Positions 32,519 to 58,067 of a stretch of 60,886 nucleotides of DNA are shown one piece after another. The notes beneath the pieces are model-generated. The model saw nothing but the letters and a program-made list of their open reading frames with translations, ran no database searches and was not told where the DNA came from. The number at the start of each line of letters is the position of its first letter. The stretch's first letter is position 1. The translations under genes were made by a program, and so were the position numbers. The DNA is from a bacterium (GTDB taxonomy: Bacteria > Myxococcota_A > UBA9160 > SZUA-336): NCBI GenBank assembly GCA_024226335.1, contig JAAELY010000440.1:1-60886 (forward strand). The letters are read 5' to 3'.

Positions 32519-33187
32519 ATGGCTGAAGAGACTGAAGAGACTGAGGCAACCGAGGAACAGGAAGCTTCCGAGATCATCGCCGACGAGCCTGCGGGAGCCG
32601 GCAAGAAGAAGTTGATCTTGATGGGGGCAGCCGCGCTTGTACTCGTAATCGCGAGCGCAGGAGCTGGGTTCCTGTTCTTCGGTGAGGAGCCTGAAGAAGT
32701 CGCCGAGGCCGGGCCTACCCCCGAGCAACTCGCCGAGCAAGAGAGGCAACAGCGTCAGCGCGGTGTCGTCGATGGCGTGGACTATGCGGCAGAAGTCGAT
32801 GTCGAGGTACCGATGCCGGAGATGGACATCGCCTCCGGCGATGAGGAAGAAGACGAAGCCGCCGCCGCTCCGGCAGAAAATCATATGGGAAAGATCGTTC
32901 ATCTCGAACCGTTCGTGGTGAACATCAGCGACAAGGACCGCGATCGCTATCTGAAGCTGAAAGCTGATATCGAGCTATCCGAAGACAAGGTCGCCTCGGA
33001 GTTCGACCAGCGACTTCCGCAGATGCGCGATCTGATCATCAGCTTGCTCGGAGGCAAGTCGTTCGAAGATCTTCGCACGATTGAGGGCAAGAACTTCCTG
33101 CGCGAGGAGATCCTCCTGCGGGTAAACGCACTTCTGGTCACCGGCAAGGCGAAACGGATCTTTTTCACGGAGTTCGTCGTGCAATGA
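32519..33187 (+). CDS. fliL: Flagellar basal body-associated protein FliL
   Basis: A 222-residue single-span membrane protein that supports the stator. It has an acidic cytosolic N-terminus, a transmembrane segment at about 31-54 (KLILMGAAALVLVIASAGA), an unusually acidic linker (residues 56-118), and the stomatin-like FliL domain with IVHLEPFVVNISDKDRDRYL and INALL-type LLRVNALLVTGKAKRIFF. The GGGGGGATGAGGC leader is a clear ribosome site. It overlaps fliM by four bases (ATGA). Confidence 0.94.
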   Translation: MAEETEETEATEEQEASEIIADEPAGAGKKKLILMGAAALVLVIASAGAGFLFFGEEPEEVAEAGPTPEQLAEQERQQRQRGVVDGVDYAAEVDVEVPMPEMDIASGDEEEDEAAAAPAENHMGKIVHLEPFVVNISDKDRDRYLKLKADIELSEDKVASEFDQRLPQMRDLIISLLGGKSFEDLRTIEGKNFLREEILLRVNALLVTGKAKRIFFTEFVVQ

Positions 33188-34341
33188 GTGAACGCGTGCT
33201 CGAACAGCAAGAGGTCGATCGCCTCGTCAAAGGAATCCGTTCCGGTGACATCCCCACCGGCCCGGACTCCCTCGCGCCCCTGCAGAGCGCTGCACCGGTG
33301 GATCTCAGTGATCCGAGCTGGAGTCACGAACGCATTCTGCGGCGGAAGCTCCCGGTCCTGGAACAGGTCTTCAACAGGCTCGCGCCTTTCGCCCAGGTGA
33401 CTCTCACGAAGAGTCTTCGTTTCCCGATTCGGGCGGAATTCCTCGGCGTGGAACTTCTGAAGTTTGGAGACTTCCGCACTCGACTGGAGGGTCGCCCCCT
33501 GCTCTTCCAGGTGATTCATCTCGATCCACTGCGTGGCTATAGCGTGGTGATCTTCGATTCCACCATCCTCTACGCGCTGATCGATGCATTGATGGGGGGA
33601 CTGGGTGTCGCTGACTCGGCTCCCGACCGCGAGGTCTCTGACATCGAAGCGAGCCTCTTGCAGAGATCACACGATGACATGCTGCGCGACCTCGAGAACT
33701 CCTGGAAGCCGTGGTTCCCCTTGCAGGTCGAAGCAGTCCGGTCGGATCGCTCCGTGCACATGTTGAGCACGATTCCCGATCAGGAAATCTGTCACATCGC
33801 CACGATCAATGTCGCCGGCGATGTTCTTCCCGCATCGCCTCTTTACTTCGTCATGCCTTACACAAGTCTGGAGCCGCTTTTTGATGCGACTTCCGCTCGC
33901 GTGGGCGAAGAGATTGATCCGAACTGGCGAATGAACCTGGAAAAGAACCTCTGCGATACAGAGATCTCGTTAGCCGCACATCTTGGAGATGCGCTGCTCC
34001 CGACATCCCGCGTCAGATCCCTGGAGCCTGGAGAGATCATCGAACTCGATCGCGGTATCGGTGAGGACATCGATATGGAGATCGAGGGCGAGCACATCTT
34101 CACGGGCCGCATCGGGAGGAGCAACCTGAACTATGGCGTATCGATCACCAACCGACGAGAAATGAAGCGTACGTTCATCGATCGCAGCATTGGTCAGATT
34201 CTGGTCCGCAAGGGCACGATTACGCGGGAACAACTCGCGGTCGCCACTGTTGATGAACTCATCAACCGCAAGTCGGTAATCGACTCGATCATCGCGCGCG
34301 GTTGGGCGGAGCAATCCGCCGTGCAAGCTGCACTCCAGTAG
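33184..34341 (+). CDS. fliM: Flagellar motor switch protein FliM with a C-terminal MshEN-like extension
   Basis: A 385-residue FliM, about 50 longer than usual. The N-terminal CheY-P peptide is LEQQEVDRLVKGI (6-18), the middle CheC-like domain carries LMGGLG (136-141), and the FliN-like domain spans about 253-328. Residues 330-385 are extra: IGQILVRKGTITREQLAVAT (336-355), then a five-residue spacer and a second weaker copy. This matches the 24-5-24 spacing of MshEN domains, which bind cyclic di-GMP, but the motif arginine is Ser335, so binding is uncertain. Overlap with fliL is ATGA. Confidence 0.94.
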   Translation: MSERVLEQQEVDRLVKGIRSGDIPTGPDSLAPLQSAAPVDLSDPSWSHERILRRKLPVLEQVFNRLAPFAQVTLTKSLRFPIRAEFLGVELLKFGDFRTRLEGRPLLFQVIHLDPLRGYSVVIFDSTILYALIDALMGGLGVADSAPDREVSDIEASLLQRSHDDMLRDLENSWKPWFPLQVEAVRSDRSVHMLSTIPDQEICHIATINVAGDVLPASPLYFVMPYTSLEPLFDATSARVGEEIDPNWRMNLEKNLCDTEISLAAHLGDALLPTSRVRSLEPGEIIELDRGIGEDIDMEIEGEHIFTGRIGRSNLNYGVSITNRREMKRTFIDRSIGQILVRKGTITREQLAVATVDELINRKSVIDSIIARGWAEQSAVQAALQ

Positions 34342-34359: not shown

Positions 34360-34653
34360 ATGCCGGAAGAGGACGTCACCGAACACGCACAACAAGACGG
34401 TATCGAGCTCCTGCTCGACGTACCTCTTCGCGTATCCGTCGAGCTTGGTCGCACCCAGATGCGGGTTCAGGAACTCCTGGATCTTGGCCAGGGATCGATC
34501 GTGGAACTCGAACGACTCGCTGGTGAAGCAGTGGACATCATGGTCAATGGTCATCCGATTGCACTCGGAGAGATCGTCGTCGTCAACGATCGTTACGCCG
34601 TTCGCGTCATGTCGGTCCACAGCCCGACCGAACGCGTGGAGAGCCTGACATGA
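34360..34653 (+). CDS. fliN: Flagellar motor switch protein FliN
   Basis: A 97-residue C-ring protein of SpoA fold. Signatures are LLLDVPLRVSVELGRTQMRV, LLDLGQGSIVELERLAGEAV and the C-terminal GEIVVVNDRYAVRV. It forms the base of the C ring with FliM and docks FliH. GGAGAGAGGAAGGACG precedes the ATG. The stop overlaps fliO as ATGA. Confidence 0.96.
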   Translation: MPEEDVTEHAQQDGIELLLDVPLRVSVELGRTQMRVQELLDLGQGSIVELERLAGEAVDIMVNGHPIALGEIVVVNDRYAVRVMSVHSPTERVESLT

Positions 34654-41327: not shown

Positions 41328-42167
41328 TTGCCGAACGCCGCACACGTTTTCGTCGAACACGCCCGGGACCTTCCGGTCATGCCCCCGGTCGCAGCAGAAG
41401 TTCTGCGCCAGGTGGAGGATCCGGACACCGATATCAACAACCTCGCCGAACTGATCACCAGGGATGCGGGGCTGGCAATGCAGGTACTCAAACTCGCGAA
41501 CTCCTCGCTCTACTCCATGCCTCGCGAAATCGAGACGCTCCCTCAGGCGATCGTGCTTCTCGGCTACTCGACCCTGCGGTCAGTAGTCATCGCCGCTTCG
41601 CTCAAGGACGTGTTCGCGAATTTCGGACCCACTGAGCGCCTGCTCTGGAATCACGCCAGTGCGGGGGGTATTACAGCCTCGTCATTGGCGGAACAAGTGA
41701 CGGGATTGCGCAAGGAAGAGGCCTTCCTGGGCGGACTGCTCCACGACATCGGCAAGCTGGCGATAATTGCGAAACGAAGTGATGCCTACCAGGCCGTCGT
41801 ACTCGCCGTGGAAGCAGGAGAGAGCGATGCGATCAGCGCCGAACGAGAGGCCTTCGATTTCGACCACGCACAGGTCGGGGGCTTGCTCCTGGACAAGTGG
41901 GGTGTCTCTGAACGACTCGCACAGGCGGTAAGCGCGCATCACGATCCCGAGAGTGCTCCGGAAGAGGCCAGGCCGCTCGCAGCACTCATTCAGATCGCCG
42001 ACATCTTATGCCACACGCTCGGGTATGGACGTCCAGAACCCGCTAAGGGGCTTCCGATACTCAGTTGTGCGGGCGCACATATCCTGGGTCTTCAGGACGC
42101 CGATCCAGAGGAACTGATTGCCAGTACCAAGAAAGCCTACGAAGATGGGCAGGAGGTCTTCTCATGA
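41328..42167 (+). CDS. HDOD-domain protein in the flagellar operon
   Basis: A 279-residue protein made of one HDOD domain. LPVMPPVAAEVLRQVEDPDT opens it, and LITRDAGLAMQVLKLANSSL and GLLHDIGKLAIIAK follow. Many HDOD proteins lack HD catalysis, but here HD and a later histidine (DFDHAQVGG) are present; activity cannot be judged by eye. It starts with a TTG ten bases after flhF, where flhG normally sits, and overlaps the next small gene. A signalling role in flagellar control is likely but undefined. Confidence 0.88.
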   Translation: MPNAAHVFVEHARDLPVMPPVAAEVLRQVEDPDTDINNLAELITRDAGLAMQVLKLANSSLYSMPREIETLPQAIVLLGYSTLRSVVIAASLKDVFANFGPTERLLWNHASAGGITASSLAEQVTGLRKEEAFLGGLLHDIGKLAIIAKRSDAYQAVVLAVEAGESDAISAEREAFDFDHAQVGGLLLDKWGVSERLAQAVSAHHDPESAPEEARPLAALIQIADILCHTLGYGRPEPAKGLPILSCAGAHILGLQDADPEELIASTKKAYEDGQEVFS

Positions 42168-52316: not shown

Positions 52317-52700
52317 CGGAGCGTTGCGCCCTCTAACTGCTGCCCCGCATCGCGAACGCACGCCGCAAGAACGCGGAAGAAGTCGAAGGCGTTTTCGGGC
52401 ATCTGCATTGCGAGTTCCTTCCAGCGCGCCCCCTCGAGCGTAAGCAGCCGCGAATCACATGATGCGACCACGGTAGCGCTACGCCTGCCATTGTCGAGCA
52501 CCGCAATCTCACCAAACCCGCTGAAGTGAAATTGCTCAGATCGCCCTCCTCGCAAATCACTTTGGCGCGAACGTAGCCGACTTCGATGAGTGACTCGTGC
52601 ATGGTTTCAAGCTGGGCAAACGCCAGGTTCGCGAGTTCTTCCAGGGCATTGCCCCGGGAACGATGCGCCAGAGTTGAGAGGCCAGCCCGAGCATCAATTC
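52313..52700 (-). pseudogene. Decayed cyclic-nucleotide-binding domain gene
   Basis: On the minus strand one frame reads LETMHESLIEVGYVRAKVI then CEEGD, the start of a cyclic-nucleotide-binding domain. Another frame continues with SGFGEIAVLDNGRRSATVVA and LLTLEGARWKELA, the phosphate-binding cassette and lid. Between the two there is a frameshift near 52548-52556 and about 30 expected codons are missing. No single frame encodes the domain. This fills the 440-base stretch between the symporter partner and the LLM genes. Confidence 0.75.
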
Positions 52701-52759
52701 CGCCGGAGTATACTGTTCCCTATCTAATTAGAACCTCGGATTCCGGGAGCGACCCATCG

Positions 52760-53581
52760 ATGAAGCTCGGAATAGCGGTGCGCTCCATGGGACCGCAGGC
52801 AACTGCCCAAACGATCCTGGCCTGCGCTGCGAGCGCGGAAGCACTGGGATTGCACGAGATCTACGTCCAGGATCACATCGCGATCCCACCCGACCAGGCC
52901 GAAGGCTCGGACGGCCGCTACCTCGACCCGCTGACGACCCTGGCGTTTCTCGCGGCACGGACCGAGCGTATCGGACTCGGAACTGGAGTCTTGATTCTGC
53001 CGTATCGCCGCATGCTTCCGACCGCAAAGGCGATCGCGACCGTCCAGGAACTCTCCGGGGACCGCCTGGTGCTGGGCGTGGGTGCAGGCTGGATGAAGCC
53101 GGAGTTTCGCGCACTGGGCATCGAGATGAGGAATCGCGGACGAGACACCGACAGAGTTCTCGCCTTTTTGAAGCGTTGTTTCGACGGAGACGAGGTCGAA
53201 GAATACGGTCAGCGTTTCCTCTTCCGGCCGCGCCCGACTCGACCGCCGATTCTCGTGGGCGGCGCCCCGCCCCACGCGCTCGAACGGGCGGTGGCCCTGG
53301 GCGACGGATGGATGCCCATGGCACGCAGTCCCGACGATCTGATCGCACCCATCACACGATTGCGGGAACTCGCAGCTCAAGCCGGTCGACCCGAGCCCGA
53401 GGTCGCGGTCCTGACCGCCTTGCCCCTCGACGATTCGCAGCGGGCCCTCGACACCGCGCTGGCCTATCGTGAGGCGGGCGCCACGCGCTTGTGTCATGCC
53501 TCCGGACGCTATTCGGACGCAGCGGAGTTCCGCACCATCGCCGAACGACTAGCTGGCAAGATCCTGCCGGTGATCAGCTGA
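52760..53581 (+). CDS. LLM-class oxidoreductase (F420-type), first of a tandem pair
   Basis: A 273-residue luciferase-like protein. TERIGLGTGVLILPYRRML, DRLVLGVGAGWMKPEFRALG and PPILVGGAPPHALERAVALG are characteristic of TIGR03619-type F420-dependent enzymes. The start is the ATG at 52760, with GGGAGCG upstream. The region before it has TATACT at 52709 and the palindrome TCTAATTAGA at 52723. The substrate is unknown. The next LLM gene begins 13 bases later. Confidence 0.87.
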   Translation: MKLGIAVRSMGPQATAQTILACAASAEALGLHEIYVQDHIAIPPDQAEGSDGRYLDPLTTLAFLAARTERIGLGTGVLILPYRRMLPTAKAIATVQELSGDRLVLGVGAGWMKPEFRALGIEMRNRGRDTDRVLAFLKRCFDGDEVEEYGQRFLFRPRPTRPPILVGGAPPHALERAVALGDGWMPMARSPDDLIAPITRLRELAAQAGRPEPEVAVLTALPLDDSQRALDTALAYREAGATRLCHASGRYSDAAEFRTIAERLAGKILPVIS

Positions 53582-53594
53582 ACGGGAGTTGACT

Positions 53595-54440
53595 GTGAAA
53601 ATCGGCCTATACGGAATCAATACCGGAGCCTGCGCGGAACCTCAGACCGCGATCCGGGTCGCGCGCGCCGCGGAAGATGCGGGCTTCGAGTCCCTCTGGA
53701 CGGCCGAGCACATCGTGCTACCCGACCCCCAGGTGCCGCCCTCGCCTGCACCGCCCGAACTGGCATTTCTCGATCCAGCGGTAGCCCTTTCGTTCATCGC
53801 TGCGAAAACCCGGAACATCCGGATCGCCACCGGCATCGTCATCCTTCCGCAACGAAATCCCGTAGAACTGGCCAAGCAATTGGCGAGTCTCGATATCGTT
53901 TCAAATGGCCGGCTGATCTTCGGACTGGGTGCAGGCTACCTGGAACCAGAATTCAGGGCACTCGGCGCGGATTTCGAAAATCGCGGCGCGCGTACCGACG
54001 AGTACATCGAAGTCCTGAAAACACTCTGGACCCAGGAGAAGCCGCAATTTGAAGGGAGCTTCTGCCAGTTCGGTGGCATCCAGTCCCAACCACAGCCGCT
54101 GCAGAAACCCCACCCTCCGATCATCATCGGCGGCCAGAGTCCTCCGGCCTATCGTCGCGCAGTGCTGCGTGGCAACGGCTGGTATGGCTTCGCGCTCGAT
54201 ATCGAGGCAACTCGCAAGGCCCTCGCAGGGCTGAGTGAAGCAGCCACGAAAATCGACCGCCCCGCAAAACTTGGCGCACTCTCTCTGACGATCACTCCGG
54301 TCGGTCCGATCGATATCGACCAGGTGAGGCGCTACGAGGATCTCGGCGTAGAGCGACTCGTCCTGCTGGCCTTCGGAAAGGAGGATGCACAGGTCGCATT
54401 CGTGGAAAAGACCGGAAATGAATTGGTGCGGGCGGGCTGA
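53595..54440 (+). CDS. LLM-class oxidoreductase (F420-type), second of a tandem pair
   Basis: A 281-residue paralogue of the preceding protein. The shared pattern is TRNIRIATGIVILPQRNPVE, NGRLIFGLGAGYLEPEFRAL and HPPIIIGGQSPPAYRRAVLRG. The start is taken as the GTG at 53595 (VKIGLYGINTG), six bases after GGGAG; a TTG two codons earlier is possible. A duplication of one ancestral gene is likely. Tandem LLM genes may act on related substrates or as a pair. Confidence 0.87.
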   Translation: MKIGLYGINTGACAEPQTAIRVARAAEDAGFESLWTAEHIVLPDPQVPPSPAPPELAFLDPAVALSFIAAKTRNIRIATGIVILPQRNPVELAKQLASLDIVSNGRLIFGLGAGYLEPEFRALGADFENRGARTDEYIEVLKTLWTQEKPQFEGSFCQFGGIQSQPQPLQKPHPPIIIGGQSPPAYRRAVLRGNGWYGFALDIEATRKALAGLSEAATKIDRPAKLGALSLTITPVGPIDIDQVRRYEDLGVERLVLLAFGKEDAQVAFVEKTGNELVRAG

Positions 54441-55325: not shown

Positions 55326-58067
55326 TTGGAACGCATCATTCGGTTCATATCCGGTCATCCCTGGATCGTGATAAGCCTCGCGGTCCTGGTCACGGGTTTC
55401 TCGCTGACCCGCTTCTACGACCCCTACGAAGGACGACTGCTGGTCGGCTATGACCCGTCCACGAACAGACTGCTGCCCGAAGGTGACCCAGGGCGGGAAT
55501 TCTACGAACACACGCGCGTAGTATTCGGCAGTGACGAGACCATCCTGGTCGTTTTGCACGCAGACGATCTGTTTACGAGACAGAATCTGGAGACGCTGCG
55601 AATTCTGACCGAGAAACTCGACCAGGTCGAGGGCGTACATCACGTTACATCTCTTGTAACGGCTCAGAGCATCCGCGGCGATGCGGAGGGGCTATTAGTC
55701 GAGCCACTGTTCTACGAGGTCCCTGAGGATCCCGAACACATCGCCGAGTTGCGCAGGCAGGCGCTCGACAATCCGATCTTTGCCGGGAATCTGATCTCCA
55801 AGGATGCGACGACGGCCGCCATCCAGGTCCATTTCCTCGACTTCGATGACGCCGATTTCTTCGAACGCGGTATCGATGCAGAGATTGCCCGCATCGCACA
55901 CGAGAACAAAGGCAATACAGAAGTCTGGATCACCGGCGCACCCCATATCAAAGTCGCGAACCAGATCACGCAACGCGCCGAACTCCAGCGCAATGTTCCG
56001 CTGATCCTGGTAATCCTGGGAGTCGTGCTCGCGTTCTCTTTCCGCTCGCTACGCGGTGTACTCCTGCCGCTGGTGACAGTGGTCGTGGCCCTGATCTGGA
56101 CAATGGGTGTCGCGGGTGCGGCGGGACGACCCCTGAACCAGGTCACGGTATTGGTTCCGTTGTTGATCCTGATTCTGGGTCTATCGTACTCGGTGCACGT
56201 CGTGTCCGAGTTCTTCGACGAGGTCCGTGAGGATCCCGAGTCGAGCGCCGCCGAATCGATGCGTCGGGCGTTGATGAAGGTCTGGCTGCCGGTATCACTG
56301 ACAGGCCTGACGACGGCTGTGGGTTTCCTCTCGGTTCTGCTCACTCCGATCGCCGCAATCCGCGAGTTCGGCGCCTTCTCCCTGACGGGAGTAATCGGGT
56401 CCGTCGTCGCTTCGCTTACGATCACGCCCGCCTTGCTGATCGCTTTGGGAAAACCCCGAGCTCTCACGCGTGCACGCGAAGAAGATGCTCGCGAAGACCT
56501 GTTCAGCCGATTTGCGGGTATCGTTGCAGAAGTCGTTCTCAGTCGCAGACGACAGGTATTCTTCGCTTTCGGGCTGGTCTTCATCGGTTCGATCATCGCA
56601 ACCACCCAGATGCGAGTGAGCTCGGACAGCATCAAGAGCCTGGCCGCCGATCTCCCGGCACGCACCGATTTCGAGGCCATCAATGAACATCTCGACGGTG
56701 CGACCGCATTCAACGTCGTGATCGATGCCAGCTATGTCGACGCGTTCAAGGATCCCAAGAACGTTCGAGAGGTCGAGAAGCTCGCGCAATGGCTCAGGAA
56801 GCACCCGGATATCGGCGGCACCACCTCACTGGTGGACTTCGTCAAGATCATGAATCGCGGCTTCAACGAAGACAATCCCGAGTACTTCGCGATTCCGGAG
56901 AGCAAGCGAATGCTCTCGCAACTCATGTTCTTCGGCGCGAGCGACGACATGGAGCGTTTCGTCGACTCACGCTATCAACTGGTCAATATCGTGCTGCGCA
57001 CACCCCTGGTCGACGCAGCTGATCTCCGCGTGCTCTCGGGCGAGATCGAGAAACGCCTGAAACTGCTCCCCGAACACATGAGCGCGACGGTTACGGGAAA
57101 CGCGATCGTCATGCAGCGCATGATCGACGACCTGATCCGTGGCCAGGTCATGACGGTAGGCGGTGCACTGATCGTCATCTACGTGATCCTTTCCCTGCTC
57201 TTTCTGTCGCCGATGAATGGCTTCATCGCCCTGATTCCGAATATCGTGCCCGTCATCGCCTATTTCGGAGCGCTCGGACTCACCGGCATCCCGCTCTCGA
57301 TCACCACGAGCATCGTCGCTCCGATGGCCCTGGGAATCGCGATCGACGACACCATCCACTACTTCGCTCGTTTCACCGAAGACGCGAAACGACTTGCCGA
57401 CGAAAAGCGTGCGACGCGGCATGCTCTGCGCACGGTCGGACGGCCTGTCACCTACACCACGATCTCTGTCGTTCTGGGCTTTCTCGTACTGACACAGAGC
57501 GATCTGCTGAATCAGGTGCACGTCGGCCTGATGGGCGCCTTCACGCTGGCCATCGCGTGGCTGGTCGACTTCACCCTGACGCCCGCGCTCTGCTCCGGCC
57601 TGCGCGTCGTCACCCTCTGGGACACGCTGCGACTCGATCTGGGCGACGCGCCTCAACAGACGATTCCCTTGTTCCGCGGACTCTCGACGGCGCAATGCCG
57701 CATTCTGGCTCAGATGGCCAGCATGCGACGCGTACCTTCAGGTCAACCACTCCTGCGCTCAGGGGACGAAGGTCAGGAGATGTACTTGATCATCGACGGG
57801 ACCCTGGAAATTTCTATCGACGGCCAGGAAGGGCGCATCGTACTGGCGCAGAGCACTCGCGGAGATCTCGTGGGTGAAGTCGGGTTCTATACGCGGCGCC
57901 GGACCGCAGATGTCGAGGTCCTTGAAGATGCGCGATTGTTGCGCCTGACCCAGGGGAGCCTGGAGCGGATTTCGAAACGCCGGCCTCGCCTGGCTGCCCG
58001 CGTGTTCTCGAATATGAACTCGATCCTGGCAGATCGCGTCTCGAACACCACCGACCACCTGCGCTAG
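55326..58067 (+). CDS. RND/MMPL-family transporter with a C-terminal cyclic-nucleotide-binding domain
   Basis: A 913-residue protein: two RND halves, each with a periplasmic loop and six helices (helices near 222-380 and 605-760). The proton-relay region is ALGIAIDDTIHYFARFTED (668-686). Residues 775-905 form a cyclic-nucleotide-binding fold with IPLFRGLSTAQCRILAQM, a phosphate cassette GDLVGEVGFYTRRRTADV (846-863) and a lid helix. The cassette Arg is kept. The start is a TTG behind GGAGG. With the LolA-like protein it probably moves lipids, with export gated by a nucleotide signal (inference). Confidence 0.9.
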   Translation: MERIIRFISGHPWIVISLAVLVTGFSLTRFYDPYEGRLLVGYDPSTNRLLPEGDPGREFYEHTRVVFGSDETILVVLHADDLFTRQNLETLRILTEKLDQVEGVHHVTSLVTAQSIRGDAEGLLVEPLFYEVPEDPEHIAELRRQALDNPIFAGNLISKDATTAAIQVHFLDFDDADFFERGIDAEIARIAHENKGNTEVWITGAPHIKVANQITQRAELQRNVPLILVILGVVLAFSFRSLRGVLLPLVTVVVALIWTMGVAGAAGRPLNQVTVLVPLLILILGLSYSVHVVSEFFDEVREDPESSAAESMRRALMKVWLPVSLTGLTTAVGFLSVLLTPIAAIREFGAFSLTGVIGSVVASLTITPALLIALGKPRALTRAREEDAREDLFSRFAGIVAEVVLSRRRQVFFAFGLVFIGSIIATTQMRVSSDSIKSLAADLPARTDFEAINEHLDGATAFNVVIDASYVDAFKDPKNVREVEKLAQWLRKHPDIGGTTSLVDFVKIMNRGFNEDNPEYFAIPESKRMLSQLMFFGASDDMERFVDSRYQLVNIVLRTPLVDAADLRVLSGEIEKRLKLLPEHMSATVTGNAIVMQRMIDDLIRGQVMTVGGALIVIYVILSLLFLSPMNGFIALIPNIVPVIAYFGALGLTGIPLSITTSIVAPMALGIAIDDTIHYFARFTEDAKRLADEKRATRHALRTVGRPVTYTTISVVLGFLVLTQSDLLNQVHVGLMGAFTLAIAWLVDFTLTPALCSGLRVVTLWDTLRLDLGDAPQQTIPLFRGLSTAQCRILAQMASMRRVPSGQPLLRSGDEGQEMYLIIDGTLEISIDGQEGRIVLAQSTRGDLVGEVGFYTRRRTADVEVLEDARLLRLTQGSLERISKRRPRLAARVFSNMNSILADRVSNTTDHLR

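Follow-up and report, generated by a model that had tools for sequence, protein, structure and literature searches.

A FliM switch protein with a C-terminal MshEN_N/GSPII-like module, likely without canonical cyclic di-GMP binding, in a family of Myxococcota_A

The flagellar motor switch protein FliM of a bacterium in the GTDB lineage Myxococcota_A; UBA9160; SZUA-336 continues past its standard domains into a C-terminal tail, which raises the question of what this tail is and whether the switch could use it to read a second messenger directly. The gene lies in a stretch of 60,886 nucleotides (assembly GCA_024226335.1, contig JAAELY010000440.1, positions 1 to 60,886 of the forward strand), hereafter the window. 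A first-pass annotation, made from the letters alone, had proposed an MshEN-like fold for the tail and a switch that itself senses cyclic di-GMP.

The fliM open reading frame is intact and sits between fliL and fliN inside a large flagellar gene cluster, with the following features:

32519-33187, + strand: fliL, overlapping the start of fliM (Pfam PF03748)
33184-34341, + strand: fliM, flagellar motor switch protein, 385 aa (Pfam PF02154, E 1.7e-27; PF01052, E 7.7e-15)
33199-33225, + strand: N-terminal peptide LEQQEVDRL, FliM residues 6-14 (L6, Q8, D12 and L14 invariant in four genomes)
33325-33882, + strand: FliM middle domain, residues 48-233 (Pfam PF02154)
33949-34152, + strand: FliMN_C / SpoA-like domain, residues 256-323 (Pfam PF01052)
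34180-34338, + strand: MshEN_N/GSPII-like tail, residues 333-385 (profiles, PDB and genome searches, predicted fold)
34186-34257, + strand: motif 1 of the tail, 24 residues, 335-358 (Arg1 replaced by Ser/Thr, Gln24 by Glu)
34258-34272, + strand: five-residue spacer, 359-363, with an invariant I-N-R
34273-34338, + strand: motif 2 of the tail, 364-385, degenerate and two residues short (Gly3 replaced by Ile/Leu, Gln24 absent)
34360-34653, + strand: fliN, of normal length (97 aa) and without a tail (Pfam PF01052, E 1.5e-25)

With a middle domain, a FliMN_C domain and flagellar gene surroundings, the protein belongs among the FliM switch proteins. Its N-terminal peptide resembles the CheY-binding peptide of FliM, which we presume it to be, with a putative role in binding CheY. 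Pfam found no PilZ domain in the FliM of the window, which accordingly does not class as a YcgR-type brake. Elsewhere in the window, an HDOD-domain protein (41328-42167, + strand) is encoded directly after an FlhF-like gene (SRP54-type GTPase match), a position at which flhG might be expected; two neighbouring luciferase-like monooxygenase genes (52586-54440, + strand) lie just past the flagellar cluster; and an MMPL/Patched-type transporter (55326-58067, + strand) is, unusually, combined with a C-terminal cyclic nucleotide-binding domain (cNMP_binding, residues 801-884).

The protein runs to residue 385 as first annotated: the FliMN_C match ends at residue 323, and a Pfam scan assigned no family to the last ~60 residues, a match to DUF7236 being insignificant. 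The extension comprises 52-57 residues, arranged 24 + 5 + 22. Each of the four family genomes that encode FliM, drawn from four genera, has it; the other seven family genomes searched gave no FliM match. No flagellated member of the family is known to be in culture. The three tail-bearing relatives, Deltaproteobacteria bacterium CSMAG_3071, OFTM108 and Proteobacteria bacterium SZUA-336, were found by a contig search with the alignment and carry the same tail at the same position, in MAGs from separate public records. A scan of the genome contigs with a single-sequence query gave no match, and a distant Rhodanobacter match in the alignment-based scan aligned only to residue 331. A frameshift or misassembly as the origin of the tail is excluded by its recurrence in the three separate MAGs, by equal GC3 in the FliM core and the tail, and by the concentration of nucleotide differences in the tail at third codon positions.

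Among the readable FliM proteins outside the family, in a survey that covered this phylum, no tail was seen: profile matches to FliM-like loci extend no further than about position 335, and the 19 C-termini that could be read there are unrelated or low-complexity sequence, some further loci being judged from the extent of the profile match alone. Ordinary FliM of other families of the phylum thus consists of the FliM and FliMN_C domains, with no such tail after FliMN_C. Within the family, the mean pairwise identity of the four sequences is 70% in the tail (333-384), compared with 63% in the FliM middle domain and 39% in FliMN_C. Across the same four sequences 27 of 52 tail columns are invariant, which in part reflects shared ancestry, because only four sequences carry the tail.

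Several searches place the tail in the MshEN_N/GSPII family. Profile-profile alignment of the tail with MshEN_N was gapless over 53 columns and reproduced the proposed register, namely motif 1 at 335-358, the spacer at 359-363 and a weaker motif 2 at 364-385. The alignment scored 35.1, whereas the best of 300 column shuffles reached 20.5 (0/300 higher) and windows of FliM outside the tail scored no more than 13.7. In a PDB sequence search with the four-tail profile, 10 of 11 matches were PilF/PilB chains, in which the aligned region was the MshEN/GSPII motif; the lowest E was 0.0048. Across 91 genomes of the class, there were 16 readable non-FliM matches, comprising eight GspE/PilB-type MshEN_N segments, five DUF4388-type proteins, one stand-alone tandem and two spurious matches; four of them are followed, after about 10 to 35 bases, by a PF05157 match that had been found independently. 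The genome of the window itself gave only a weak best match outside FliM (E 0.22), an MshEN_N segment on contig 259 that immediately precedes a PF05157 match.

Outside FliM, the closest match of the tail (E 9e-6) is the stand-alone protein L120 of the same class. This short protein (L120, 1231-1845) apparently consists of a run of four MshEN_N half-motifs, and Pfam placed no other domain in it above the cut-off. The proteins L123, L127, L130 and L131 are of DUF4388 type (by Pfam, L123 only) and contain a helical pair that resembles MshEN_N but has eroded ligand positions. The modules of L120 and L123 have lost ligand positions similarly to the tail and, unlike it, are unattached to flagellar proteins.

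Structure prediction points the same way. An AlphaFold model of full-length FliM, built with four sequences, had a poor core (pLDDT 38) and a confident tail, and the tail was therefore modelled alone, giving four helices at pLDDT 88.8. The eleven best PDB matches of this model in Foldseek were all PilF-GSPII or MshE structures, with probabilities up to 1.00; the best match had TM 0.69 and rmsd 1.1 A, and Vibrio cholerae MshE (5htl_B) aligned with TM 0.71 and rmsd 1.0 A. Against this, the Foldseek E-values exceed 0.1 for this query of only 64 residues, and the sequence of motif 2 is weak. Fumarase helices, considered as a better match, ranked below the eleven MshEN-type structures with lower probability, and a viral structure library yielded no convincing match. 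The FliM tails keep 9-10 of 10 structural core positions.

Two sequence-based searches gave negative results. Pfam detected neither PF05157 (T2SSE_N/MshEN) nor MshEN_C in FliM, and the protein ends after motif 2, such that the tail is not a complete MshEN domain; however, the absence of PF05157 says little about the tail, because in the GspE/PilB proteins examined this model starts after the two 24-residue motifs and covers the part that follows them, which makes it an unfair test. Likewise, the published relaxed MshEN search motif (PMC5013675) matched none of the four FliM proteins; it includes ligand positions and is a search pattern rather than a fold criterion, which may explain why such tails are missing from earlier lists.

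Could the likeness be fortuitous, with an unrelated helical hairpin happening to bear G-x-x-L-V-x-x-G? A helix-turn-helix pattern of two motifs is a simple one, and the fumarase helices match weakly too. However, no shuffle came near the score of the tail, the PDB, class-wide and structural searches converge on one family, and the 24-5-24 register is gapless, so that chance is a very remote explanation. Because the profile, PDB, class-wide, profile-profile and structural searches agree, we consider the FliM tail to be, firmly, a homologue of the MshEN_N/GSPII N-terminal subdomain, predicted to form a four-helix module without MshEN_C. Thus, the proposed MshEN-like fold stands for the N-terminal subdomain only, on four kinds of computed evidence.

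Comparison with characterized domains shows where the tail departs from them. Like the tail, MshEN_N of V. cholerae MshE (PDB 5HTL; PMC5013675) is a four-helix bundle of two 24-residue motifs with a five-residue joint, but it occupies the N-terminus of an ATPase rather than the C-terminus of FliM, whereas the tail lacks MshEN_C, has a motif 2 that is two residues short and has lost half of the ligand residues. GSPII-A of Thermus thermophilus PilF (PDB 9g1w; PMC12002112) differs from the tail in possessing a C-terminal subdomain and in belonging to a tandem array of three GSPII domains, carried by an ATPase.

The MshEN consensus is RLG...G...LxxxLxxQ, present twice (Wang et al., PMC5013675). 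In motif 1 of the tails, Arg is replaced by Ser or Thr, Leu by Ile, Ser or Ala, the second Leu position holds Thr, Gln, Leu or Arg, and Gln is an invariant Glu; in motif 2, Arg is replaced by Ser, Leu, Gln or Pro and Gly by Ile or Leu, and Gln is absent. The motif-1 Gly3 and several hydrophobic positions are retained. In total, 5-6 of 12 ligand positions survive in the FliM tails, whereas canonical GspE/PilB domains from the same lineage retain 10-12. The residues of a cyclic di-GMP receptor, (R/K/L)-L-G and L-x3-L-x2-Q in both motifs, do not occur together in any of the four tails, all of which have lost both Gln residues and the motif-2 Gly. The Arg-to-Ser change had been spotted in the first-pass annotation, which nevertheless understates the loss of ligand residues.

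These substitutions have experimental counterparts in PilF. GSPII-A, a domain that does not bind cyclic di-GMP, was repaired in a fragment in which Ser in place of Arg nonetheless abolished binding (PMC12002112), and the double Gln-to-Glu mutant of GSPII-B is non-binding (PMC11731258). In apo GSPII-B, helix 1 is elongated and would collide with the ligand; in the tail model, helix 1 begins about twelve residues before motif 1 and continues into the domain without a break. Given the lost ligand residues, the non-binding PilF mutants with like changes and the elongated helix 1, canonical binding is unlikely; on the sequences and the model, the tail has likely lost it.

We therefore weighed the possibility that the tail is nonetheless a working sensor of cyclic di-GMP or another nucleotide, in which a modified MshEN_N site would alter the C-ring and the switch would read the messenger directly. 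The fold is right for such a role, the genome offers an ample cyclic di-GMP network (14 GGDEF, 21 PilZ and 5 MshEN (PF05157) matches), the invariant Arg334 adjoins the lost motif-1 Arg, and the extended consensus tolerates Lys or Leu in place of Arg at position 1, with single Gln-to-Glu mutants of GSPII-B still binding at 0.5-1 uM (PMC11731258). Against it stand the motif-1 Glu in all four tails together with the missing motif-2 Gln, the motif-2 Gly changed to Ile or Leu, the PilF precedents and the unbroken helix, and we regard direct sensing as improbable. The proposed sensing of cyclic di-GMP by the switch itself is thus not borne out, half of the 12 ligand positions being lost in every family member, including by changes shown experimentally to abolish binding.

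What, then, could a module without its ligand do on FliM? Conservation in the tails is inverted relative to ligand-binding MshEN domains: residues of the pocket are variable or missing, whereas positions that are not usually conserved are identical in all four tails, namely the spacer I-N-R, RK342-343, EQ349-350, D357, R372 and E376. In Xanthomonas citri PilB (PDB 7lkm; PMC8389850), ND0/ND1 lacks the cyclic di-GMP motifs, a loss shared with the tail, and docks PilZ, although the highlighted PilZ contacts are with ND1, which is missing from the FliM tail. Together, the inverted conservation and the PilB precedent point to protein docking.

At the cytoplasmic base of the C-ring, FliN packs with the C-terminal part of FliM, including FliMN_C, and the FliH-FliI export complex is close by. 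A tail located after FliMN_C would therefore bring one copy per FliM to this base. We propose that FliM of this family gained a C-terminal MshEN_N/GSPII-type four-helix module whose canonical cyclic di-GMP binding was lost, and that each FliM would display one such module, giving a ring of identical modules at a position deduced from the known architecture. The polar conserved surface (RK342-343, EQ349-350, DE357-358, INR360-362, R372 and E376) would bind a partner there, candidates being FliN or a neighbouring FliM, the FliH-FliI export complex, or a PilZ-type adaptor. This reading, a ligand-dead MshEN_N module serving as a protein docking or assembly element on every FliM, draws on conservation and on analogy with PilB, and we give it a probability of about 0.6.

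An alternative role is that of a purely structural stiffener of the C-ring, packing on FliMN_C/FliN or on neighbouring tails without a regulated partner. The tail directly follows FliMN_C and is under strong constraint, and it may substitute for stabilising contacts of FliMN_C, which has itself diverged to 39% identity; yet FliM of related families in the phylum does without it, and most known relatives of the module serve in regulation or docking. We consider this role tentative and less likely than docking. Second-messenger control inside the C-ring, through non-canonical binding of a cyclic dinucleotide by the tail or through recruitment of a cyclic di-GMP-responsive PilZ adaptor to every FliM, seems to us rather doubtful, although an adaptor-mediated input is possible, given the GGDEF and PilZ complement of the genome.

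In the literature searched (open-licence papers), we found no description of an MshEN/GSPII module on FliM or another flagellar rotor protein. Published fusion partners of MshEN include REC, HD-GYP, CheA, CheX, a cyclase and a kinase (PMC5013675), and the main text of that paper names no switch protein among them. FliM-MshEN_N therefore appears to be an undescribed combination of known domains.

To conclude, the FliM tails indicate that MshEN_N folds can persist under strong constraint after loss of the ligand site, and thus cyclic di-GMP sensing should not be concluded from a fold match by itself. If second-messenger control were to prove true, a brake or clutch input would be built into the switch complex of this family. 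Should the tail dock a regulator, a regulatory module of pilus and secretion systems would have been transplanted onto the flagellar switch, providing a defined handle on how extra inputs reach the C-ring.
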